Below are positions 1,853-63,760 of a stretch of DNA of 64,000 bases, in pieces. The stretch covers positions 3,311,950 to 3,375,949 of the forward strand of contig JAJEKV010000061.1 of the NCBI GenBank assembly GCA_021234155.1, in the 5' to 3' direction. Each line of letters starts with the position of its first letter. Position 1 is the first letter of the stretch. A program made the translations under genes and the position numbers. The notes beneath the pieces were generated by a model. The model was not told the origin of the DNA and made no database searches. It was given only the letters and a program-made list of their open reading frames with translations. This stretch comes from Isoetes taiwanensis. Taxonomy: Eukaryota > Streptophyta > Lycopodiopsida > Isoetales > Isoetaceae.

Positions 1853-2121
1853 GGAAGAATCGGAGTTCAAATTGGTGATTCCAACCTGGAACTCAGAACT
1901 TGTTGGATGAGGTTATGACAAGAATAACATTGAACGTCCCAACAATGCGGTTCAAACCTTGTTATGTTGTATCAAACATGACAAGGTACATCAAAAAATT
2001 CTGGAAAAAGAAGCTTTCAAAGGACCAAATGGATACTCCCCTCGCGAGTCATTTTGATTTTAGCAACTGGCTGAAACTGATACCTATGATTAATGGGACC
2101 TTGAATGAGTGGGACGAGACC
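1853..2121 (+). other. Possible exon fragment of an unrecognised gene
   Basis: A 74-codon open stretch ends near 2121 and follows an acceptor-like GATTGCAG. Its product contains a basic segment (IKKFWKKKLSKD) and matches nothing I recognise. A possible donor (AAG/GTACAT) lies at about 1985, so the exon could be shorter. Homology between the two Crypton-like copies (see 2181-3896) stops at about 2122, so this segment is unique flank or an older host exon. I cannot assign a function. Confidence 0.2.
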
Positions 2122-2350
2122 TGAGAAATGATCAATCTCATCAACCCCTTCAACTCCTCCTTATAAACAACATCAAAAGTTCACCTCCTACCATCTCCAT
2201 CAAATGGATTTGTAACGACATCCATTGCACACTTGGCTTGCAGATCAATTTTCTTATCATACCTGAAAAAAAACACGTCAGAAATAAAGAAAGCCAAACA
2301 AAAATGCGAGTAATTAAATTACATGTGGTATGCTTCAGAAGTTCGTTGCC
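2122..2350 (-). repeat. Dispersed repeat copy 1: recombinase 3' end with intron
   Basis: This segment is, in reverse complement, nearly identical to 55313-55575. The shared part covers the end of the catalytic domain (AVGMRITGQRTSEAYH), a short intron of about 60 bp and the last exon. Because the intron is shared, the copies arose at DNA level and not by retroposition. Confidence 0.85.
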
Positions 2351-3896
2351 CCGTAATTCTCATGCCAACAGCCTGTGGAACTCCAACCCTTATCATTCTA
2401 GATATAACTGTTGTACGCTCAGATTTGCCAGAAAATTTACCCTCAATTCCAACAGTAGCTAACATGTATTTGACCCAAGAAGCAAGTGTTCTTGCGCTAA
2501 CTCTATTAGTAGAATTATACCACTGAACAAACTTGTAATTCTGAATAACCCGCATAAAGCAAAACCTCACAATATTTCCATCTTTATCAGGCTTCCCTGC
2601 ATCCAAATGCCTCTCAAGTTGTTTATATGTCAAGACAACATCTCAGAATCGTAGCACCTGCATGGCATTCTAAACTGCTCTTCCTGATAGTGATTCATAT
2701 CCACATCATAGTTCTTACTCAATCTCTCATTATACTCGAGGAACTCTTTCCCATTCTCTTGACCAACTAGAAAATCACCTATCAGCAGCTGATGCAACTC
2801 ATTCTGCCCTCGAATAGCAAACCTACCTACACAATAGTACAAGAATCTCCTCTGCATGCCTGTAGCATGAGTAACCTGATGATCCAAGTATGCTAACAAT
2901 GCTTCTTCATTAACAAAACTAATCTCATCTAGCTTTTTTCTTTTCTAACAGACACCTGGAGTTTTCCTAGATCTCCTCATGCTAGCTATACAAGCTAATT
3001 GTGCTCGCTCGAAAATAGGATTCTTCCTAATGTCAAAGGTAAGCTCCTGAATTCCAATTTGGGATATCCTTATTTTCCGATGTCTTCTTATCATGCTCCC
3101 AAACTTCATGAACATATCCTGCAATCTGCAAATCAATCAAGGAGTTAGAAAGTTATAAAATTACAATAACAAAATAAGAAAGTTGTTAACTAAAACTTAC
3201 GATTCAGGGGGATAAAATTGACCATTATTCTTCGTAACTTGCAATATGAACCGTTCTAGCAACCTAGAAAACTCTAAAAGATCCATTTCCTCAATTGTCA
3301 CCTCAGTACTAATTCCAGAAAACTCCCTCCAAAGGTCAAACCATTTTCTAGCCCACTGTATCTTTGCTGCAGACCTAGAAATGCCACCAACATTAACCTC
3401 CCTTTGAAATTCCTCGTCAAGCTCAACAAATGGCACTCTACAGCCATTAGAAAGCACTGTAGGATTTCTGACAGGCACTACAACTGTCTTCAGCATGTCA
3501 GAATTCTCAGCATAAGATCTCATCCTCTCCGAATTCATTGACCAATTCTGACTCAAACTCGGACAGACCTAAGCTAGAACACTCAGCTGCAACAAAACTA
3601 CCAAAACAAGGCACATTAGGTAGAACACTAGTAGGAGCTACATTCTCTGCACCATTGTATACATGCATGTCCATGACTTCTTCAGTTATCATCGAAATGA
3701 CAGGTATTTCTTCGGAACCAACATGCACAGTGTTCATAATATCCTCAAGAATGTTCTGATCTTCCAACATATTAAACGTAGGCGCATCCATTCCTATAAG
3801 TCTCACCTCACTATAACTTAGTGCTTGAAGCACAAAAGCAGCACTTAAGAAACCGCAGAATATGAAAAACAAAACTAGTCCTTGGCATTTAGCCAT
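2181..3896 (-). pseudogene. Crypton-like tyrosine recombinase (DUF3504 family), spliced, disrupted
   Basis: On the minus strand three exons can be read: 3201-3896, 2323-3125 and 2181-2262, all with GT-AG borders. The product follows the layout of the DUF3504/Crypton family (KIAA1958- and ZMYM-like). An N-terminal core-binding segment (FILQVTKNNGQFYPPES, then LQDMFMKFGSMIRRH, then FDIRKNPIFERAQL) precedes the catalytic domain. That domain has the first Arg box (GRFAIRGQNELHQL), a second box KSERTT with the Arg kept but His replaced by Lys, GQ in place of the usual GH, and the nucleophile position in YHMYDKK. The Tyr is supplied by the third exon. Breaks are an in-frame TAG at 2945-2947, a frameshift near 2631-2640 and another near 3510-3550. 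The N-terminal part before about 3550 resembles nothing I know. Family assignment rests on motif order and spacing; no search was run. Confidence 0.72.
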
Positions 3897-3932
3897 TTCG
3901 CACCTCCAGACCAGATCAACTGCATGCAGCAA

Positions 3933-4476
3933 AGAAATGACACATTAGCATAAAAAATAAAAAATAAACACAAGAACATAAATTTGCTTACAAGTATTAT
4001 AAAGAATCACTTCAAAGCTCGCAAGAACGCAGAAAAGTTGCAAAGCAACTCCAAAAATCAGAACAAAAGGTTGAACACTCGACAAAGATCCTCTCAAAGG
4101 ACTCCAACCGCCACAACTACACTATAACATCTGCCAGAACTCCACAAGAAGCTCAGAAACTCAACAAAATACTCCACCGACCATCTGCAAGCAAGATTTG
4201 TCAGAATATAAGAAAATCTAACTAAAAACACAAAAAAAAGTCGAGAATCACATCTAAACTACCCTAGCGCCTTTACAGAAGCAGGAGCATTATCAAAAAA
4301 CTCGTCAAAAATGCTCCAGCACCTTCGAAAATGGCCTGACGCCATTCAGAACGCCATAGCCAGTTCGCGAAGGAGAAAGAGAGAGAAAATGTCGTCCAAC
4401 TCTGCTCTAAATTTTTTTTCCACGTCAGCACCAACTAGACGCCACGTCAGAAAAAAATAGCACCATACATTCACGT
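3933..4476. other. No gene recognised
   Basis: The bases between the recombinase pseudogene and the inverted repeat at 4477 carry no recognisable coding or RNA signal. They would form the 5' flank of the minus-strand recombinase gene. Confidence 0.4.
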
Positions 4477-4588
4477 TGCAGGAATGGCAGGGTGCCTTAA
4501 ATTCTGCGGGGTCAACTTTTGCCTCCGCGTTGACGCGCATTGGCAAAAGTTTTCCCCGCAGAATTTAAGGCACCCTGCCGTTCCTGCA
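4477..4588. repeat. Long inverted repeat (hairpin), 47-bp arms
   Basis: Arms 4477-4523 and 4542-4588 are reverse complements with about three mismatches. The 18-bp spacer itself contains a small GCG/CGC stem. The transcript of either strand would fold into a stem of about 47 bp. It may be the end of a foldback element or a source of small RNA; nothing coding is seen. Confidence 0.85.
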
Positions 4589-4589
4589 T

Positions 4590-5113
4590 ACATAATAAAC
4601 ATTACCTTGAAATTACTGTTAAATTATGTCTATTTTATAGAGCAGAAGATCTTCCAGGTTTCGCGGAGCGGCGCTGCTAAGTTTCCCGCCAGCAACACTT
4701 CCATGCCTCTATTGCGAGCACATCCCCTGCTTTGAAAGCACCAGTCTGCTTTGATTCCGGCACTACTCTCACAATTTTCGCTCGAAAAAAATGTTGCAGT
4801 TTCGTTGCCTCCCGCAGATAGGGTTTCCTAGATCCACTAATCATCCTTCTCTGCTCCAGACCCAAATCTTGAGACAGATGGTCTACCATTACTGGAATAG
4901 GCCTAGCCAATGCTTGCCCTATCATAAATCTGCCCTATGCTTAAAGTTACAGGCTCCTGCATAAGCTCCAACCTTTGGCCATTGGAAATACTAGCTCCAA
5001 CCATAGCTGAACCGAGTTTTCCTTGTCATCGCTAGCCATAGCCGTTCAATAAGATACGCCGTTCAACAAGGAAAAATTTATCTCTTACGTAATTTCAAGG
5101 TAACGTTTATTAC
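4590..5113. mobile_element. Candidate 0.5-kb MITE-like segment with inverted ends
   Basis: The segment 4590-4617 (starting CATAATAAACATTACCTTGA) reappears as reverse complement at 5087-5113 with few mismatches. The enclosed 0.5 kb has no coding potential. The inverted ends and size fit a non-autonomous DNA element, but I could not find a clear target duplication, and it lies against two other inverted repeats (4477-4588 and 5134-5234), so the limits are uncertain. Confidence 0.35.
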
Positions 5114-5133
5114 GTTTGATATTTTCAGGCGGT

Positions 5134-5234
5134 CGGGATTCTGCCTGAAATTTTTTCGGCAGCCCCGCCAGCCTCGGCGGAACACTTGCAGCTTTGCCGC
5201 TCGTGCGCCGCCTCAAAATTTCAGGCGGAATCCC
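5134..5234. repeat. Inverted repeat, 20-bp arms
   Basis: 5134-5154 (GGGATTCTGCCTGAAATTTT) is the near-exact reverse complement of 5215-5234, separated by about 60 bp of GC-rich DNA. It is part of the inverted-repeat cluster at 4.4-5.3 kb. Confidence 0.7.
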
Positions 5235-5449
5235 TCCCCCCTAAAAATTATCTAATACTTAGCCTAGTTGAAACTTTGGTTAAGGGATAGGTTTAAGTAT
5301 CCACTTGAAGGCAAATATGCTGAAATTAAAGTTACAAAACAACTATTTAAACAATATTCAGGATCAGGAAAAAACTAATGGGGCCGAATAGATTGTGCAC
5401 CTTGGCGTCTCTGTCCATGTTGTCTTTCCTATTTGCAACATATAATGTT

Positions 5450-15603: not shown

Positions 15604-17282
15604 TGTGACGTCCCCTACTCGTATACGGTGCACTCACCGCATACAAACAGGAGTTCATCCCCCATACCAGCTCCATGCCGATACAGGGCCCTCCACATGA
15701 CACTGCAACCGTGACGGGTTCTAGTGGGAAGAGTGAAGGGGTCATTTTACCCCGTCTCCCTCAGGGCCTACCTAGCTGCGGAAGCATAAACACACATGTC
15801 AGTAGTACATACATCAACATCATATGACCATCACGAAGGATGGTCCTCCACATATCTGCATAGATAAAGATCAGCACATCACATGGGGAATCCTACCCAA
15901 GGCTCAGACACAGGGATGGACTGACAAGCTTGGGTCACCAGAGGTCATTGCAGACAGAATTCATGGCAATGGATTTGGCTGGCATAAGAACATGGCTTAG
16001 GGTTGTCCACTCCATCCGCCCCTCCTGTGCACACTTTGCAGAGTAGGTTGAAAAGTGTTGGGACCTGACTGTAGCCCGCCGGATGCATAGCCAAAGGGGC
16101 TATTCCTGGGTTACATCTCCCCAGGTCCGATGGGGCAGGTAGGGATCACTCCCTCCAGAGATCTACGTGCTGACTCAAGGTGACTAGAGGGCCACTGCCC
16201 TTATTCGACTGAACCCACTGGAAAGTCATAAACACCACTTCACGGGTGTCGAGCCCATGCCTTGCCCGCACTCAGTGGCAAGCCATTGGACCTAGTCACA
16301 ATGATCCCTGGTAGACCTCTCACACCAGAGGGGTCGTTCAAGAGTCAGAACACGAACCTCCTTCTTAGCCAGTCTGGCCCCTTCACCCACAACCAGGTGT
16401 GGTTCTTGTACACAGGCCGAATCTATAGTGTGCTAGAGAGGCTAATCTAGGAGCATCTACTACCAAGCTTTAGGTCTCTACCCCCCTTCCCAATACAAGG
16501 AGTTCATAGAGATACATCATCCATATACATCACAGAAGAACTAAAGAACTAGATCTAATCTATATCATAGAGTTAGGTTCTTTAGTTAGAGTCTGGTATC
16601 TAGAGATCTAGATGGCTGCTATGGGCAATTTATTAGGCTAAACCTACTGGTTCTATGACTAAAAGAGGGTTTAAGCTATTAAATTGCCTAAATACCTGAT
16701 CCTTGAGTTCCTCCTCCTGACCTGAGTTCGACCATCCTGCTGAAATGCTCGAATCAAGGAAAACTAATGATGCAGTTCTCTCAGACAGAGTCTGGGAGGC
16801 GGTTTTGGCTCTTGAGGCAGCCAAAACAGAGCTCTAAAACCCTAGAAACGAAAAATGGGCAAGTTAGGGTTTTCCCTCCTAAATAGACATGGGGTTGGCT
16901 AGGGTTTCCAATTATCCCCTTTAGGCATGTGGGATAATTGGGAATGCGCCCACATGCCTTTAATGGCTAGGTGGCAAAATGTGCCCACATGGAAAGGTGT
17001 GCCCACATTAATGTGCATATTGGTAAATGTGCACATTAATTGCACACTTGGTATGGCCCACTTGGCATAAAGTGTCCACATGGGAAAATGTGCACCTAGA
17101 TAAATGTGCACATGGTTAAATGTGCACATTAATAAATGCACACTCCTTGCAAGTTGCCCCCTAGGGGCTACCCACCTGGCTACACGCCGGGCGTACACGC
17201 CGGGTCGGGGGGCGTAATGCAGGATTGGCAGGCGATGCGATAATGCCCCGGGACCGTGATATCTCGTCTTTGGAACGTCACA
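15604..17282 (-). repeat. Element B 3' LTR (1,679 bp)
   Basis: Full LTR with inverted termini TGTGACG/CGTCACA. It is non-coding; the short frames inside recur only because the LTR is duplicated. From about 16970 to 17140 it holds a cluster of AATGTGCACAT-like motifs, which may be regulatory. Confidence 0.9.
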
Positions 17283-25385: not shown

Positions 25386-26974
25386 CAGGGCCCTCCACAT
25401 GACACTGCAACCGTGATGGGTTCCAGTGGGAAGAGTGAAGGGGTCATTTTACCCCGTCTCCCTCAGGGCCTACCTAGCTGCGGAAGCGTAAACACACATG
25501 TCAGTAGTACATACATCAACATCATATGACCATCACGAAGGATGGTCCTCCACATATCTGCATAGACAAAGATCAGCACATCACATGGGGAATCCTACCC
25601 AAGGCTCAGACACAGGGATGGACTGACAAGCTTGGGTCACCAGAGGTCATTGCAGACAGAATTCATGGCAATGGATTTGGCTGGCATAAGAACATGGCTT
25701 AGGGTTGTCCACTCCATCCGCCCCTCCTGTGCACACTTTGCAGAGTAGGTTGAAAAGTGTTGGGACCTGACTGTAGCCCGCCGGATGCATAACCAAAGGG
25801 GCTATTCCTGGGTTACATCTCCCGGTCCCATGGGGCGGTAGGGATCACTCCCCTCCGAGATCTACGTCTTGACTCAAGGTGACTAGAGGGCCACTGCCCT
25901 TATTCGACTGAACCCACTGGAAAGTCATAAACACCACTTCACGGGTGTCGAGCCCATGCCTTGCCCGCACTCAGTGGCAAGCCATTGGACCTAGTCACAA
26001 TGATCCCCGGTAGACCTTACACACCAGAGGGATCGTTCAAGAGTCAGAACACGAACCTCCTTCTTAGCCAGTCTGGCCCCTTCACCCACAACCAGGTGTG
26101 GTTCTTGTACACAGGCCGAATCTATAGTGTGCTAGAGAGGCTAATCTAGGAGCATCTACTACCAAGCTTTAGGTCTCTACCCCCCTTCCCAATACAAGGA
26201 GTTCATAGAGATACATCATCCGTATACATCACAGAAGAACTAAAGAACTAGATCTAATCTATATCATAGAGTTAGGTTCTTTAGTTAGAGTCTGGTATCT
26301 AGAGATCTAGATGGCTGCTATGGGCAATTTAATAGGCTAAACCTACTGGTTCTATGACTAAAAGAGGGTTTAAGCTATTAAATTGCCTAAATACCTGATC
26401 CTTGAGTTCCTCCTCGACTGAGTTCGACCATCCCGCTGAAATGCTCGAATCAAGGAAAACTAATGATGCGCCTCTCGGGGAAGTTCGGGGAGGCGGTTTT
26501 GGCTCTTGAGGCAGCCAAAACAGAGCTCTAAAACCCTAGAAACGAAAAATGGGCAAGTTAGGGTTTTCCCTCCTAAATAGACATGGGGGTGGCTAGGGTT
26601 TCCAATTATCCCCTTTAGGCATGTGGGATAATTGGGAATGGGCCCACTTGCCTTTAATGGCTAGGTGGCAAAATGCGCCCACATGGAAAGGTGTGCCCAC
26701 ATTAATGTGCATATTGGTAAATGTGCACATTACTTGCACACTTGGGTATAGCCCACTTGGCATAAAGTGTCCACATGGGAAAATGTGCACCTAGATAAAT
26801 GTGCACATGGTTAAATGTGCACATTAATAAATGCACACTCCTTGCAAGTTGCCCCCTAGGGGCTACCCACCTGGCTACACGTCGGCGTACACGTCAGTCG
26901 GGGTGGCGTGTACGCGATTGAGGCGATCAAGATTATCGTCCGGGACCGTATAATCTTGTCTTTGGAACGTCACA
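25386..26974 (-). repeat. Element B 5' LTR, inner end deleted
   Basis: It matches 15686-17282 with minor changes but lacks the inner 82 bases and the adjoining primer-binding site. The outer end CGTCACA is followed by target duplication CTAAC. Confidence 0.9.
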
Positions 26975-28126: not shown

Positions 28127-29442
28127 CTAACCTCGCGCATTAAAGACTAGATATTGCGCTAAGCTGGATCGTATGGCTTCTCCATCATCCACCTGTTGAA
28201 CCTCTTGTGCATCTTCCTCGTCGTCATCATCCTCCTCTTCCTCTTCTTCTTCGGCTAATCGTTGAAGCTCAAATTCAACATCGATCTCTCTTGACTCAAG
28301 CAATAGATTGTGAAGCAAACAACATGAAAATATAACATGTGGTATAAAGTCAACGTCCATTACCAAAGTAGAACGCAAGCATTTGAAAACCCTCTTCAGA
28401 ATGCCAAAGGTTTCCTCCACGAACAATCTTGCTTGAATGTGCTTCATGTTGAAGAAATTTTTAAGTGCATCAAGATTGGATGGATCTCCTATATACGGAG
28501 TCATGAGCCATGAAGTAAGAGTATACCCTTTGTCACCAACAAGATAAGGGCGTAAAGTATAGTTGCCATTGATTGGAATACATGGCTCATATAATACCTC
28601 TTGATATTGTGCTCTATGTGCAAATTCTGAAAGTCTAAGAACACGAGCATCGTGTACAGACACTGGTAAACCAATGAACACATCAGTGAACCTTCTACTG
28701 GTGTCACATACTGCTTGCAAAATTACTGAGTGTCGTTGCTTCCTATCATAATAATCTGCACCTCCTATAGATGGCCTATTAATATCCATATGAGTGCAAT
28801 CAATGGCACCATAACAGTTTGGTAGGCCACTAACTCGTCGGAAAGAAGCCTCAATACTTTGCAGCTCATCACCAACTGGCCATTTGATTTTATGCTTAAA
28901 GCAGCCATTTATAGCATGACAAACTTCCTTCAAAACTAGACAAGACGTGCTTACCCCAATTCCAAACTTCTCCGAGACCTCATGATGGTCACAACCTTTG
29001 AATAACTTGTATAAAGCAAAGAGCCACACGACATGGTACTTTGAACCGCAAGCCCTGTAATGAGTGTCATGTTTACAATGAAAGGAGCAAGTACTCTACA
29101 TATGCTCACAAATGATCTTCTTGTCATTCTCAGATTCTCTTTCCATCGGCTATCATCGTACACTTCAAGCAAGAAACGATCAAACCAAACAAGACTTCTT
29201 GGTTTCACCCACCAAGATGATTCATGCCTCAAACTCGCAGCAGCACATACAAACTCTATCCTATTATCTAAACCAGAGGAATGATCAAGCAAATCAAGCA
29301 TCCGTCGACCTTGAATAAGAAGATCTTCCTCCTGCTCTTCAAAAAATCCCATGTCAGGCATCATAATCGTTTTGTACATCATGTATAATGTCATGGAAGC
29401 CATGTATAACAACTCCATTCTCTCCATGTCGATATTACTCAC
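28127..29442 (-). pseudogene. PIF/Harbinger transposase (DDE_Tnp_4), one frameshift
   Basis: This gene cuts and reinserts the element. The C-terminal 300 codons (28127-29029) hold the catalytic core: first Asp in GAIDCTHMDINRP, second in LVGDKGYTLTSWLMTP and Glu in VEETFGILKRVFKCL. An acidic tail follows (E/D run near 28200-28260). The N-terminal part (to 29442) includes the helix-turn-helix-like MTRRSFVSICRVLAPFI. The two halves are in different frames, and a single-base loss near 29050-29060 explains the shift. Length and motif order match HARBI1-type transposases. All three catalytic residues remain. Confidence 0.9.
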
Positions 29443-29912
29443 GAGATTACTGCATGAAACAAAGGTTTATTTCTGCATTAGTGTGAAAACCAAAAAATTT
29501 CATGAATGCACCTCTTCTTTTCCTTAGAAATTATGGATTCAAGGTCTAAATAGAAATGGTCTATTCATAAATCACACTTCTTATGCCTCTTATGCCTCTT
29601 ATGTTATCGAACCCATCCTTTATGTTAGATGGGTTTTCTGCCCTTATGTCATGCTCCAAATCATGCTGGTATTTCAAAATTTGATACATTTTAGGAACAT
29701 GATTATTGCACATTTTCAGAAATAAGACAAGAACATTTCACAAATACAAAGGAGCTCCAAATCATGCTGTTATTTCAGAAGTTGATACATGCGGTCCAAA
29801 AAAAATGATTACTGCACATTTTAAAAAGTACACAACAACAATTTCAGAAATACAAAAGAACTGAAACTTTTCAGTCTTTCTTCTCCATAGCACATTTATC
29901 AAACACAAAAGA

Positions 29913-30681
29913 CTAAAGTTTCTCCGAAATTTTCTTCCATGCTTCTGCGATGCCTACAAACGCATCAACTAGCCTTGCCCTATCTGCAACAAGTTTTTCT
30001 TTATCTGCTCGATCGTCCTCTCTACGTGCCTCTTGCAAGCCAACTAACCGCTCATGCATCTTCTCATTGCTTTCCATCTTTTGCTTTTCCAATTCATACT
30101 TTCTGTCCTCAACTTCTCGAAGCACTTTTGCCATTCCATCAATTGCACTGAATTTTCTCTTCTTACCACTAGAACCAACCTCTCTATCACCTGGGATAGA
30201 TGCATTATTTGATGCCATCTCCACGTCTTTGCTAGTATCTATCACAAAAGGAGGTGTAATAGATGGTCTCCTCCCTTGGAAAGTATCTAAGAGATCATAA
30301 ACTTGCTGCTCAAATATAATAGGAAGCTTAGAATCCTTTTTTTCAGCCTTTGTTAATGTGAAGTAAGGAGCTGCTCCAGTCCGTTTCTCATAATCCTTGA
30401 TGAGTTTATAATCTGACAGAACATTTTCCCATTTGGTACGACAATTGTCAGGGCTTCTATCCATGCCCTTACTAGTAAGATACTCATAAACCTTTTTCCA
30501 CTTGCTAGCTGCTGTTTCAATCTGATCCCTTTTCTCAGCCACCTCATAAACTTCCCACTCATGCTTCTTAGCTTCCACCAATATCAGAATTTCATGCAAG
30601 GTCCAATTTCTGGACCTCGCACGTTTTTTTCCCCCGGATGGGGCCTGAGTTTATAGTTACCTCTTCTTCGTTACTAGCCAT
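29913..30681 (-). pseudogene. Harbinger Myb/SANT-like DNA-binding protein, one frameshift
   Basis: The second gene of PIF/Harbinger elements assists nuclear import and end binding. The frame 29913-30599 encodes a trihelix/Myb_DNA-bind_4-like domain (SKWKKVYEYLTSKG...NCRTKWENVLSDYKLI), then a linker and a C-terminal coiled coil rich in Glu/Lys/Arg. The natural start appears to be ATG at 30681 (MASNEEEVTINSG). An extra A in the seven-A run near 30626-30632 breaks the frame before RSRNWTLHE, the first SANT helix with its Trp. Confidence 0.85.
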
Positions 30682-45925: not shown

Positions 45926-45951
45926 AGTTAAGTGGTTTACTTTATGTATAT

Positions 45952-46034
45952 AGGAATGTCAATTTACTTGACATTCCTGAGATGTCGCGGAGCCCTGTTG
46001 ACATCTCAGGAATGTCAAGTAAATTGACATTCCT
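45952..46034. repeat. Perfect palindrome, 35-bp arms, 13-bp loop
   Basis: 45952-45986 is the exact reverse complement of 46000-46034. Each arm is itself nearly palindromic: AGGAATGTCAA, five bases, TTGACATTCCT. The whole can fold as one long hairpin or two small ones. It lies about 260-340 bp upstream of the monooxygenase start. Confidence 0.95.
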
Positions 46035-46391
46035 GTAATGTGGAAGACAGTTAGGTTCAATTCCGTCGTCAGAATGTCGGGTAAAAAACCAAAATGTTGA
46101 GTAAAAAGTCTGAACGTCAGGTAAATGCATAAAACTAAAATTTATTAACATTCAGCAAAAGAAGCGCGCCACGTGGCAAGGCGCTATTGGTGGACGCGAT
46201 GGAATTGAGCCTAACTGCTTTTTACGTTGCATTGTCATGTGCCAACACTACCGCCTTCATGCAAAAACGTCACCATTCTTGTATACTAACGTTTGGGTAG
46301 GAGCAACAAAAGGAAGTCACTAAATTATTGATTTCTTGATTGTCGTAGTGGAAAGTCTACTCGGGATTGTCCGGCTATAGCAATCGTTTGA

Positions 46392-55312: not shown

Positions 55313-55945
55313 TGGCTGTTGGCATGAGAATTACGGGGCAACGAACTTCTGAAGCATACCACAGGTAATTTAATTACTCGCATTTTTGTTTGGCTTTCTT
55401 TCTTTATTTCTGACGTGTTTTTTTCAAGTATGATAAGAAAATTGATCTGCAAGCCAAGTGTGCAATGGATGTCGTTACGAATCCATTTGATGGAGATGGT
55501 AGGAGGTGAACTTTTGATGTTGTTTATAAGGAGGAGTTGAAGGGGTTGATGAGATTGATCATTCCTCAGGTGGTAATGGTTCCGCTTTGATTGATTCTAG
55601 TATTAATAGCAATGCCAGAGATGATCAGAAGTTGAATGATGGTGCTTCTCATTGCGGATCAGAAAGTGCCAAGTATTCTCAACTCTAGTATTGTGGCACC
55701 TAGTATTGCAATCGAGAATGTGTCTCCTGTTGTTGAATTGTCCCCCGTACTTCAGGATGAATCGGAAGAATTGCTACATTTTAATCGCGATATTGAGACT
55801 TTGGGAGCAACTTCTCTTGTTGTACGACATGCATTAGGTTTGCAGATGCAGATTTCAAATATTTCTGGTGGAACGTTTCAAAATTGCAGCATTGTGATGC
55901 CTCACATGACAGGGAAGATCTGGGTGATTTCATACAAAACCTGAT
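55313..55945 (+). pseudogene. Crypton-like recombinase, 5'-truncated second copy
   Basis: From 55313 the sequence encodes AVGMRITGQRTSEAYHR, the end of the recombinase catalytic domain. An intron follows whose acceptor is changed (TTCAAG versus TTCAGG in copy 1), then DKKIDLQAKCAMDVVTN. The changed acceptor puts the next exon out of frame. Homology with copy 1 ends near 55575. Further on, frames to 55945 hold an acidic stretch (LQDESEELLHFNRDIE) and ISNISGGTFQNCSIVM. That last piece resembles the C-terminal GG.F.NC.I motif seen after some DUF3504 domains (from memory). Upstream of 55313 the sequence is unrelated to copy 1. Confidence 0.6.
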
Positions 55946-56129
55946 TAAGAAGAGTTAGATTTGGACTTGGAAGTGATCTATAAACTTCATATTTTCATGT
56001 TTTCTCATGTTTTCTGATCTAGTGTGATCTGGTCATGATCTGCATTGTTGTAACTTTTGACATGAAATGAAGCTTTTTTACTGTATAAATTGCAGTTTTT
56101 TTTACTCTGTAAATTGCATTGTATTTGAG
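55946..56129. other. No gene recognised
   Basis: 3' flank of recombinase copy 2 with repeated TTTTCATGTTTTCTCATG and TCTGATCTAGTGTGATC-type phrases. Confidence 0.4.
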
Positions 56130-56255
56130 AATGTAAGTTGAAATAGCTGAATGTAGGGTAGAAAGCTTAGAATGTAGGGTAAAATTGTTGGAATGTAGGG
56201 TAAAACATAGAATGTAGAGTAAAAATGTAAGAATGTAAGGTAAAAATAAAAAATA
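56130..56255. repeat. Minisatellite of GAATGTAGGGTAAAA units
   Basis: Five or six imperfect copies of GAATGTAGGGTAAAA with short spacers. Confidence 0.85.
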
Positions 56256-56772
56256 TCAATCTAGCCTAGGGGTCAGAAAAAATGGTACCTTACATTTACA
56301 CATTTAGTACTGCAAAATTGATAACACCAAAAATGACGTTGAAAAGCCTTTCTCAAAAACCGGCTCTTTTGCAAATGGCATATACGGAAAAAAACACTTG
56401 AGTTAAGTTTCGCCGCGTCTGCCACCAAATAGGAACTGGCTGCTGTATTGATTAGATTACAACAACATTGGGTCCTATGAGATAAGAAACCACAGAGGAC
56501 CCTACCTTTAACATGCTATTCCATTAAGAAATAAAGAGCACAATTTTGCAAATCGTATCAGCTATGCTGCCTGGGGAAAGAACATGGATACCAACTCTTT
56601 GTAGCTACTGAATGTCAAACTGTCTGCTGCTCCTGTGATTAAAAAAAAAAAAAACTAGCAGAACTGCAGGGTTGAGAAGAAGGCTAGATAAATGGATTTG
56701 TGTTGGTAATTTTAATTGTAGTAATTTGAATTTCAGCGGCATGCTAAGAGAATATGTATTAATATATGAATC

Positions 56773-60630: not shown

Positions 60631-62595
60631 CTACTTTTTGTGTTTTTTGTGTTTTGGCAGCTCAACCTTCCCATACGATAAGAGTCTAGAGAAGGGAAGG
60701 CCTGTTTTGCTCTTCTTCCGCCTCCTTTTCTTTGAACTTTCACCAGTTCCTTGTCCTGACAATTGTGTGTGAGCACTATCAATTATAGTAGAATCAACTG
60801 GTTGATTGCTGTTATTATCTACCAATTGATCATCACAACTTGTAGTTGTTGCAGCTTGTTTATTCTTCTTATTGGTAAGCCTTGGGGTTTCATCCATGGC
60901 CTTACGCTTTCGCTCCTTTTTATTTAGCCTATGATACTTCGGAACCTTCCATTCCTCAGTTCTATAAGGAGCGAGTCTTTTTACTGAAACATACTGATTG
61001 AGTTCTTTATCATCAGTTGTTAATATTTCCTCTGGTGTCAGACCATACATGTTTGGTTTGAGTTTCTTATATTTGAACCTAGTAGGGAGATCACCAATCA
61101 TGTCTTCATAATCTAGCTTATAGTATTCTTCCAAATGCTTTTCCAAAGCCAACTTTAAAGGGACTTCAAGATTTTTATTTACCTCTTCATCCACTATGCC
61201 TGCTAATTTCTCCTGTTGCTTCACCTTGGCAGCTGCGAAACCAACAGATGTGTGGTTGTCCCAATCTTTTGAAAGCCCTAACAACTCATTCTCCATGTCA
61301 AAATCAGGCTTTCCCATCCCTTCGATATCATCATCTTCATCTCCAGCACAAAAATTGGCATCCATATCTTCTGCCTCATAATAACCTTCGCCAAATGCCT
61401 CATGCATTTTCCTATCATATTCTTCAGGATCAAAGTCCTCCTCAAGGTCACGTTCATCTAGGACATCAAGGCTACCAGCACCAGCCACTGACTTTATCTT
61501 TGATAACTTTTCCATCAACTCTTTTTTCTTCACGTTCTTTAGCCTTTTTAGCTCTTCTTTTCTAGCTAATGCAGCTTCTTGCTCTCTATCTTGTTTCAGT
61601 TTGCGTTGCTTCTTTCTAGCATCAGATTTCTTACGAACAGAATCATCAATTATTCTGGAGTGGCCCAACACCTGATTTCCAGCACCTTCTTCAAACCTAA
61701 AATTATAGTCAGCTTCATATTTATCTTGCTTTTCAAGCTCTTTTTCATCCTCGCTAATCTCATCAACAATTTCCCCATATGATGGTATCCGATTCTGCTC
61801 TCTGTCAAACCATCCCTGGTTAAGAAGGTAATCCTTTAAAAATTTCTCATTTTCATCAAGCTCATTATCCTTGCCAAAATACTCTTCCAACCGTCTGTTT
61901 ATGTCAACATCTTTCCTTTTCTGCTCAAATTCCGCAATGGCTTCATCTGTATCCCTCTTCTCCTTATCTAATTCCTCTCTGGTCTTCTTCCTAATTTTCA
62001 AAAGTCCCCCAACATCTTCTGAGTCTGGGTCTGCTTCTGCAACACTCTGCAGAAATGCCTGCTTCAGCTGCATCTGCTCCTCAGCATAGCTTAATAAGTC
62101 TTTCCCTTTTGCTTTATCCTTTGCTTTATGGATAGACTCCAAGTCCTCACCTTCTGGGCCATCTTCTAAAAGATGCTTTGCAACCACATCCTTCAAGTAA
62201 ACACCTTTAGTCGTTCCCTTCCCTTTAGCCTTGGCCAGTTCATTTTCTCCTTTCTGCTCATTTTCTTCCTCTTCGTCATCATCGTAGAATTTAACAGCTT
62301 TAGAATAAATGACAGGATCACGCTTCCTAATTTTCACTAGAGTATCAAGGATTTGTACCTCGGTTTTTTCAGAAAGCACTCCATCCTCATCCTCTTCTTC
62401 GTCCTCAGAGTCAGATTCTGAGTCTGAGTTTAAAACCAGCCCCTGTTTCTGCAGCTCTTCAAGACGATGAAGATCTTCACGCTTTTTATTGTGCTCAAAA
62501 CGACGAGCATACTGTTCATTCACCTTGAGCTCATCCACACTGCCATCATCGTCTCCTTCATCGAGCAGGGACTGCCGTCGACCCACCATAGCCAT
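60631..62595 (-). CDS. KRI1: KRI1-like ribosome biogenesis protein, single exon
   Basis: An uninterrupted 654-codon frame starts at ATG 62595 (MAMVGRRQ; a second Met lies two codons on). The protein is highly charged, with an acidic Ser/Asp/Glu tract (residues about 57-73) and long Lys/Glu coiled-coil regions. The KRI1 core (DERDLEEDFDPEEYDRKM, about 375-395) and the KRI1 C-terminal domain (LPTRFKYKKLKPNMYGLTPE, YVSVKRLAPYR) follow. It ends in a Lys/Arg-rich nuclear or nucleolar-type tail (SSKKRRRKKSK). In yeast, Kri1 works with Krr1 in 40S subunit assembly in the nucleolus; the same role here is inferred. No lesion is seen. Confidence 0.95.
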   Translation of the reverse strand: MAMVGRRQSLLDEGDDDGSVDELKVNEQYARRFEHNKKREDLHRLEELQKQGLVLNSDSESDSEDEEEDEDGVLSEKTEVQILDTLVKIRKRDPVIYSKAVKFYDDDEEEENEQKGENELAKAKGKGTTKGVYLKDVVAKHLLEDGPEGEDLESIHKAKDKAKGKDLLSYAEEQMQLKQAFLQSVAEADPDSEDVGGLLKIRKKTREELDKEKRDTDEAIAEFEQKRKDVDINRRLEEYFGKDNELDENEKFLKDYLLNQGWFDREQNRIPSYGEIVDEISEDEKELEKQDKYEADYNFRFEEGAGNQVLGHSRIIDDSVRKKSDARKKQRKLKQDREQEAALARKEELKRLKNVKKKELMEKLSKIKSVAGAGSLDVLDERDLEEDFDPEEYDRKMHEAFGEGYYEAEDMDANFCAGDEDDDIEGMGKPDFDMENELLGLSKDWDNHTSVGFAAAKVKQQEKLAGIVDEEVNKNLEVPLKLALEKHLEEYYKLDYEDMIGDLPTRFKYKKLKPNMYGLTPEEILTTDDKELNQYVSVKRLAPYRTEEWKVPKYHRLNKKERKRKAMDETPRLTNKKNKQAATTTSCDDQLVDNNSNQPVDSTIIDSAHTQLSGQGTGESSKKRRRKKSKTGLPFSRLLSYGKVELPKHKKHKK

Positions 62596-63760
62596 GAAAG
62601 TTTTAGGGTTTTAATTTCTGATACTGCTCACCTTCTCGTTATAGTTAAGAGGGAAAACATCCAACTCTAATCACACATCCAACCCTAATCACACATCCAA
62701 ACAAAAGGAAAACATTCACACCATTGGATCGAACCATTCGCAGCCATCCAAGTGGCATGAAACATGGCCATCTAAGTAGCATGAAACAAAACTATAGCAC
62801 TATCATCAAACATATATAAAGCAGTTTTGCTTTTTTCTTCGGTCCGCTTAAAAAAAAATTTATTTTCTCCCCATCCTCAATCAACTCTCTTTAATTTTGT
62901 TCTGAAATTCGCCGCCATGAAAATTCGTGTTTGGGTGTCGCTGCCGGTATCACAATTCACAAGGAATTCCTGAGAAAGGATTCATAAATGCCTTTGTTTC
63001 TGGCTCACGGGACTTCCTGGTTGTCTCGGATATGGAATCCTCGATGCAGCAAAACATGGCCGAGCCTTCAATTGTGGAATACGAATCTCCTTTTAGGCCA
63101 TTTAGCATTATAGTTTGTCTTCTCAAAGGTGCATCTTAAGAGGTTCTCTTGAAGGAAGATATTATGTTTACAACTCCATGGATTACTGTCACCAGCTTAT
63201 TTGCAAATAGAGCATACCAGACAGCTTAGTCGGGTAAACATCTACTTCTATCTTTAGACGCTCCATGGCCTGTATTTTATGAGTGACTGGTTGTTTCATG
63301 AAACGTTCTATGATAGATAGAAACTTGTGAATTGGCATTTTAACGAGGTTATGCAAGTATGTGTTGATAACCGTGGAGATATCACTCCAACAATAGATAA
63401 TCTATAAAAAGAAAAGCATTAAGCAAGTATGCTTGCTAATCAATAGTCTTCTGCCATTTAATTTATATCCACAAATGTATTATTGCAGGCAAGACAGTTA
63501 ATTTATAGCCACTTATTTGCTAAGTGTATGTATTATTGCAGGCAAACTGTGGAACAAAGGAGCAACAAAAGTTAAGGTTTATGGTTGTATGCAAAATTGT
63601 CATTTAAGAATTTGCATAACATTGCCAGTTTTCATACCATGCTTCAGTCATTGTAAAACATCCAGGATACTCCACATTTCAGATATGATCATAGTAGCAA
63701 AATACTTTGCAGGCTTAGAAACCGATATATCTAACAGTCACGTATCAGCTTCTTTAACCA
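62596..63760. other. 5' flank of KRI1 and unassigned sequence
   Basis: A plus-strand start at 63031 (MESSMQQNMAEPSIVEYESPF) ends at 63139 and looks protein-like but is not recognised; a GT at the end (AAAG/GTGCAT) could be a donor. AGTATG.ATTATTGCAGGCAA occurs near 63475 and 63525. ACACATCCAA.CCTAATC repeats lie near 62670. Confidence 0.3.

Follow-up and report, generated by a model that had tools for sequence, protein, structure and literature searches.

The window, by which we mean the whole stretch of DNA analysed, comprises 64,000 nucleotides of the Isoetes taiwanensis genome (assembly GCA_021234155.1, contig JAJEKV010000061.1, positions 3,311,950 to 3,375,949 of the forward strand). A broken three-exon tyrosine recombinase (YR) gene lies on its minus strand, within the features of a putative mobile element. 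They are listed below in window positions; TIR-L and TIR-R are the left and right inverted repeats of the element.

2119–4591, minus strand: element copy 1, with its 5′ end and body, about 0.8 kb missing at the 3′ end (aligned to L009, L010, L011, L027, L028 and L019)
4478–4591, minus strand: 5′ GTAT and hairpin of copy 1, 114 nt, with the GT core at 4591–4590 (from the inverted repeat 4477–4523/4542–4588 and relatives)
4447–4477, minus strand: TIR-L of copy 1 (best match TIR-R of copy 2)
2181–3896, minus strand: YR gene of copy 1, a pseudogene (from reading frames and profile matches, with relatives compared)
3896/3791–3201, minus strand: exon 1 of the YR gene
3200–3126, minus strand: intron 1 of the YR gene
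3125–2323, minus strand: exon 2 of the YR gene
2322–2263, minus strand: intron 2 of the YR gene
2262–2181, minus strand: exon 3 of the YR gene, ending in TGA
55314–56301, plus strand: element copy 2, with the 3′ end of the gene, the C-terminal tail region and the 3′ untranslated part; 5′ part missing
56272–56301, plus strand: TIR-R of copy 2
45946–46227, plus strand: short non-autonomous element, 282 bp, built in the same way (hairpin, TIR-L, and TIR-R ending in ACGT), ends placed by eye
4592–5250, minus strand: possible older non-autonomous relative, degenerate and uncertain (hairpin about 5250–5119, inverted repeats 5118–5089 and 4616–4592)

The YR gene contains the motifs IRGQNE, KSERTT and GQRTSEAY, followed by a Tyr region that spans intron 2 (YHM before it, YDK after it). 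The exon junction past FYPPES runs into LQDMFMKFGSMIRRH, which we take to be reminiscent of the 'Y.P.SL' stretch in Crypton/QRICH1 proteins. Translation could start at the ATG at 3896, but the MDAP start at 3791 is more likely, because it recurs in relatives. The reading is interrupted by a frameshift at about 3540–3560, an in-frame TAG at 2947–2945 and a further frameshift at about 2642. The original prediction had proposed a three-exon gene with these motifs at this place, which proved correct. Its interval, 2181–3896, describes the coding part; the element itself starts at 4591 and, in copy 1, is cut at 2119.

Two further structures adjoin the listed elements. Copy 1 begins exactly at the 3′ end of the possible older element (4592), as if a resident GT had been reused, and the 282-bp element is followed by an inverted, degenerate hairpin whose end lies at 46286. 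Elsewhere in the window, a DDE_Tnp_4 transposase and a Myb/SANT protein form a PIF/Harbinger-like pair at 28127–30650. The window also contains a 1.6 kb direct repeat (15684–17282 and 25386–26974; 95.9% identical, starts 9.7 kb apart), reverse transcriptase-like ORFs judged by eye to be Ty3/gypsy, and a KRI1 homologue at 60631–62610 whose single exon is open.

Profile searches with the window copy gave weak matches. Pfam Phage_integrase matched the joined reading at E=0.0075 and the catalytic part at E=0.0019, under the curated cut-off, and QRICH1 matched a piece of the copy at E=0.08. The DUF3504 (PF12012) search of the three-exon translation, which had been proposed as a check of the original prediction, returned no match for the window copy and one match, at 0.043, among three spliced relatives. 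Ten non-YR frames taken from complete elements served as a Pfam control: eight had no match, one matched RCS1 at 0.0013, and another matched four unrelated families, the best at 0.0045. Since control frames reach 0.0013, single Pfam matches of about 0.001–0.1 are weak evidence, and the Phage_integrase values of the window copy are no better than chance. The window gene had no relative at E≤1 in a large protein database (whose plant coverage is uncertain), none among viral contigs and no match in NCBIfam; PDB matches by sequence were at chance level. An AlphaFold single-sequence model of window 2322–2642 (pLDDT 46.7) was set aside. We therefore built the case for a YR on relatives elsewhere in the genome, whose frames are open and whose matches are stronger. 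These relatives support the prediction of a Crypton-like tyrosine recombinase in a plant genome.

A search of the Isoetes taiwanensis assembly (1,658,258,908 bases, 1110 contigs) with the catalytic part yielded at least 159 matches at E≤1e-3, which answers the proposed genome-wide count with a lower bound on matches and not a copy number (150 of 1091 candidates scored). The matches range from 99% to about 40% identity and lie on many contigs, several of them of tens of megabases; this spread argues against contamination. We compared 28 copy-bearing stretches. Every spliced exon is open in L017 and L029, exon 2 is open in L009, L011, L025, L026, L033, L034 and L036, and the remaining copies are broken to differing degrees. 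The gene has three exons in most clades, in keeping with the multi-exon structure first proposed, and the second intron is absent in the L029 clade. Protein identity to a distant clade is 32–44%. Near-identical copies occur at separate places (L015/L017, dS 0.03), and the family includes some young copies. Upstream of the YR gene, the 5′ leaders of L009, L011 and L027 contain a recurrent frame of 92–144 aa with HGYGVLNG..RPF, for which the L011 version had no Pfam match. In many copies of several clades (L010–L036; window copy 2, 55660–55935), though not in the L029 clade, the C-terminal tail ends with a motif like NISGGTFQNCSIVMP.

In two clades the protein could be spliced to its end and measures about 570–630 aa. 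It consists of an N-terminal region, a QRICH1-like stretch, a YR catalytic domain of the form R...K-S-x-R...(Q/H)...Y, and a C-terminal tail. The canonical YR pentad includes the His of HxxR and a His or Trp before the Tyr. In a 19-row alignment of exon-2/3 frames, the Lys of KSxR was kept in all 19 rows, Arg II in 17 of 19 and Arg I in 14 of 15 readable rows, and the Tyr (RYD) was present in all nine rows that reach that far. The usual His of HxxR is replaced by Lys (KxxR) in 19 of 19 rows, and the H/W position before the Tyr is occupied by Gln (14 of 18 readable rows) or His (4 of 18), so that these proteins depart from the canonical pentad. With the catalytic Arg, Arg and Tyr in order, and integrase matches in profile and structure searches, they are members of the YR superfamily.

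Among the 19 members, Phage_integrase (PF00589) matched nine, the best at 1.1e-5 (L029, under the cut-off), and DUF3504 matched five, the best at E=0.002. The Pfam gathering score of PF12012 is 29.7 bits; a spliced L036-type protein reached 14.3 bits (E=0.043, profile positions 21–160 of 162). A spliced L029-type protein matched Phage_integrase at 2.1e-5 and QRICH1 at 0.077, and a spliced L017-type protein matched neither Phage_integrase/DUF3504 nor QRICH1. QRICH1 (PF25561) was matched at the expected N-terminal place by two of the five queries containing this region (E 0.08 and 0.077). PHROG integrases matched L029 at 2.4e-8 and 5.7e-7; in the same collection L033 had no match and L011 no relevant one. 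A CSL zinc ribbon (Zn_ribbon_CSL; E 0.009–0.1, nine of 19 members), placed around a CRC motif, was judged to be a chance match, and seven further Pfam families matched once each among the 19. Every Pfam match with a displayed score falls under its curated cut-off. The assignment to the YRs is based on the catalytic residues, on profile matches that recur and keep their order, and on the matches of L029. An AlphaFold model of a family protein had low confidence (pLDDT 43.6); in a Foldseek search of PDB with this poor model, ranks 1–10 were all YRs (XerA, XerH, Cre and integrases; best E 5e-3), and rank 11 was QRICH1 in the Zincore structure 9hjt (E 1.3).

To assess selection, ten exon-2 frames were compared, with dS saturated for many pairs. 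Where dS was finite, dN/dS between subfamilies was 0.07–0.13, with the exception of L033/L029 (0.24). The youngest pairs gave 0.53 (L017/L015), 0.41 (L025/L026), 0.27 (L034/L036) and 0.08 (L009/L011). The YR protein is under purifying selection between the compared subfamilies.

Comparison of copies gave the anatomy of the full element, 5′-GT-ATA-hairpin-TIR-L---YR gene---TIR-R-GT-3′. Both ends were placed in 14 of 28 loci, with element lengths of 3,029–3,358 bp. The hairpin of about 100–145 nt adjoins GT-ATA at the 5′ end, and the inverted repeats measure about 30–40 bp. TIR-L reads AACGTGAA... in most clades and AATATTGAAATA... in the L029 clade; TIR-R terminates in ...TTTAC-GT or ...CAATATT-GT. 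Since starts were set by looking for GTAT, ATAT or GTCAT (ATAT in L020, GTCAT in L027), the agreement of the 5′ ends is partly by construction; the empty sites described below are independent of the choice of start. Within a copy, TIR-L and TIR-R match with a score of 26–32 in nine of 11 loci compared, the others being L011 (17) and L027 (8), where TIR-L is damaged. Between subfamilies the scores are 4–18, with the maximum for the L009 group against the L017 group; among L033–L035 they are 16–25. In some elements a further hairpin, in inverted orientation, lies beyond the right repeat; that of L015 (3′ side, minus-strand 5502) differs in sequence from L015's own 5′ hairpin. At oriented position 3775 of L022, a short element built on the same hairpin plan is inserted near the YR gene of another copy.

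The two window copies can be read in terms of this anatomy. Homology among L009, L010, L011, L027, L028 and L019 runs beyond the cut of copy 1 at 2119. Copies 1 and 2 overlap by 259 bp at 96.5% identity, and of the repeats tested, TIR-R of copy 2 fits TIR-L of copy 1 most closely, scoring 18, narrowly ahead of 16 for the next (L017/L015). On the strength of this overlap and this match, one split element replaced our earlier treatment of copies 1 and 2 as separate truncated copies: the window element was probably divided when a segment of about 53 kb (2119–55571) inverted between staggered breaks. The break points of this putative inversion carry a 259-bp inverted duplication.

Sites without the element were found for the two insertions whose flanks were searched. 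L024 sits in a repeat, and its joined flanks matched 15 unfilled places. The filled site reads TTAGTT-GT-ATACAGG...TTTAC-GT-GCCATT, and the eight unfilled places examined in sequence (L037–L044) all read TTAGTT or TTGGTT-GT-GCCA. For L031, of the L029 clade, both unfilled relatives read AAAT or AAAA-GT-AYATAATCC. A single GT stands in each of the ten empty sites read, which represent two insertions belonging to distant clades; insertion thus added the element and one GT, with no loss. A 23-bp direct repeat flanking L017 was considered as a target duplication and dropped, as none was seen at other copies. We consider it likely that these sequences form a family of YR DNA transposons that would move by conservative recombination at the GT core, and that window copy 1 is a dead, split member. 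Such a family would offer a precise, GT-targeted recombination system for study in plants.

Inverted repeats and a 2-bp duplication are also traces that a DDE element could leave. The YR gene would then be a passenger in a TIR transposon that depends on a DDE transposase not seen here, and GT a plain 2-bp target duplication. In the 14 complete elements, non-YR frames of at least 100 aa were, by eye, antisense, out-of-frame or 5′-leader frames, and ten of the longer ones contained no transposase, integrase or reverse transcriptase in Pfam. Against a passenger role stand the purifying selection seen on the YR gene between subfamilies and the retention of its catalytic residues. The hairpin lies outside TIR-L, an arrangement that, to our knowledge, is not a DDE feature. 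These results make movement by a DDE transposase improbable.

The original prediction had allowed for either a hosted element or a domesticated gene. The multi-exon gene structure could fit a domesticated host gene, and the animal DUF3504 genes are domesticated Cryptons according to passages of PMC3212892. At least 159 matches, empty sites, near-identical copies at other places and the broken window copy speak for a mobile element, and we regard a single domesticated gene as the account with hardly any likelihood left.

The hairpins, the window copy included, were excised from 19 sequences. The palindrome at 4477–4588 had been considered as a separate foldback element and was dropped when it was found at the same place in relatives; the same hairpin design recurs in the clade that is 32–44% identical in protein. 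For covariation, 12 hairpins, in rows picked for diversity, were aligned with the stem of L024 as reference. In this alignment 88.5% of cells pair and 35 of 46 pairs are altered on both sides. Cells changed on both sides numbered 109, against 33.9 (sd 4.4) after shuffling and at most 36 with the partner slid. The structure thus looks to have been kept through sequence change, apparently by selection. The tip pattern GCCGACGC-N3-12-GCGGAGGC occurs at 397 places in the genome and at none in the backward-read control. The first 100 tips listed include 84 loops of 3–4 nt, and 71 of these 84 are GNA/GNNA, a loop type that is unusually stable in single-stranded DNA; as copies are related, these stem, tip and loop counts are not independent events. 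The gene strand folds more stably in 13 of 19 hairpins, by a small difference between strands.

Long palindromes can be corrected by template-switch repair, and the arms are near-perfect in several copies. Matching arms may then reflect homogenisation rather than selection. Nine of the 19 folded hairpins, including that of the window copy, lack an internal tandem GA/GA mismatch, as this explanation would have it. At least one such mismatch is found in the other ten and two in six of the 19, in both distant clades (L013 entered this count shorter than full length, and the strand-stability folds in full). Homogenising should erase mismatches, and so their presence counts against it, as does the prevalence of GNA/GNNA among the short loops. 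We find this explanation of the paired arms rather unlikely, and favour selection on the structure.

An ordinary Crypton, whose hairpin and inverted repeats would be irrelevant to movement, is suggested by the weak resemblance of the enzyme to Crypton/QRICH1/DUF3504 proteins. Animal Cryptons are described without terminal repeats in the relevant part of PMC3212892, and here the hairpin, the matching TIRs and the covarying stems recur in clades only 32–44% identical. The ordinary-Crypton reading is in our judgement unlikely. Of the Crypton identity in the original prediction, the Crypton-like build of the enzyme stands; the best DUF3504 match (E=0.002) is a weak one, at the level of the control (0.0013), and the ends are unlike those of animal Cryptons.

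For a YR transposon of this anatomy, the enzyme would bind both inverted repeats, sites that we assign by position and symmetry, and release the element in circular form, closed at GT. The GT of the circle would then recombine with a target GT. More speculatively, the hairpin may extrude from a single strand, or form a cruciform, thereby juxtaposing two recombinase sites in the manner of attC. In the seven elements folded, out of 14 with both ends, the circle-junction order TIR-R, GT, hairpin, TIR-L forms one long stem with a small internal loop beside GT, reduced in L029; the continuity of the stem is partly inevitable, because TIR-L and TIR-R are complementary. This fold hints that the enzyme could recognise a folded site, much as attC is recognised by integron integrases. 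The insertions are equally well accounted for by an ordinary double-stranded YR reaction at the GT core, in which the hairpin would form a cruciform or have some other use. We propose only tentatively that the family represents a transposon superfamily of eukaryotes in which a folded hairpin is the substrate of the recombinase, an attC-like site having evolved in, or been brought into, a plant genome. The structure-keeping hairpin raises the question whether, like integron integrases, a eukaryotic recombinase can work on a folded site in single-stranded DNA.

In integron cassettes, the integrase IntI is of the YR class, and attC is a long imperfect hairpin whose structure is kept while its sequence varies, with a short GT-containing crossover. 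The quillwort element shares the YR-class recombinase, the hairpin at the element end and the GT crossover. It differs in being eukaryotic and in carrying its own recombinase gene, and the likeness is one of folded-site anatomy only. The DIRS, Ngaro and PAT retrotransposons also combine a tyrosine recombinase with unusual terminal repeats, as does the quillwort element, whose scanned frames contain no reverse transcriptase and which therefore falls outside that group. Helitrons and IS200/IS605 elements are moved by HUH enzymes; they resemble the quillwort element in a hairpin near an end and a short target sequence. Helitrons have TC/CTRR ends and insert into AT (PMC7385966, in the part consulted), whereas the quillwort ends are GT-ATA.../...TTTAC-GT, with no TC/CTRR.

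Published Cryptons come from fungi, animals and stramenopiles, and land plants are absent from Table 1 of Kojima and Jurka (2011; PMC3212892). They are undescribed in A. thaliana according to the relevant portion of PMC7385966. Where PMC11630846 mentions Cryptons, it cites none from plants, and the word Crypton is absent from PMC9033089 and from the consulted portion of the Isoetes taiwanensis genome paper (PMC8566536). Titles and beginnings of abstracts in open-licence papers disclosed no hairpin-ended YR element of a land plant. The quillwort family resembles Cryptons in having a YR gene, inferred to encode the enzyme, with no detectable reverse transcriptase or DDE partner in the ten non-YR frames scanned, and in its weak matches to the Crypton-derived QRICH1/DUF3504 profiles. 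It differs from the published descriptions, as given in parts of PMC3212892, in its multiple exons, the GT at both ends and the His-to-Lys replacement. The animal Cryptons of groups A and I have no terminal repeats in the same account, whereas the quillwort element has a 5′ hairpin and matched inverted repeats. A land plant here hosts a large Crypton-like family that includes young copies and whose ends differ from the published ends of animal Cryptons. The DUF3504 genes (ZMYM2/3/4, QRICH1, KIAA1958, KCTD1 and WOC) share with it weak profile matches in the order PF25561, then PF12012/PF00589, and the family may bear on the origin of Crypton/QRICH1-type proteins. Those genes lack the Tyr and the second Arg, as described in passages of PMC3212892, whereas the quillwort copies keep both residues and are multicopy, with empty sites.
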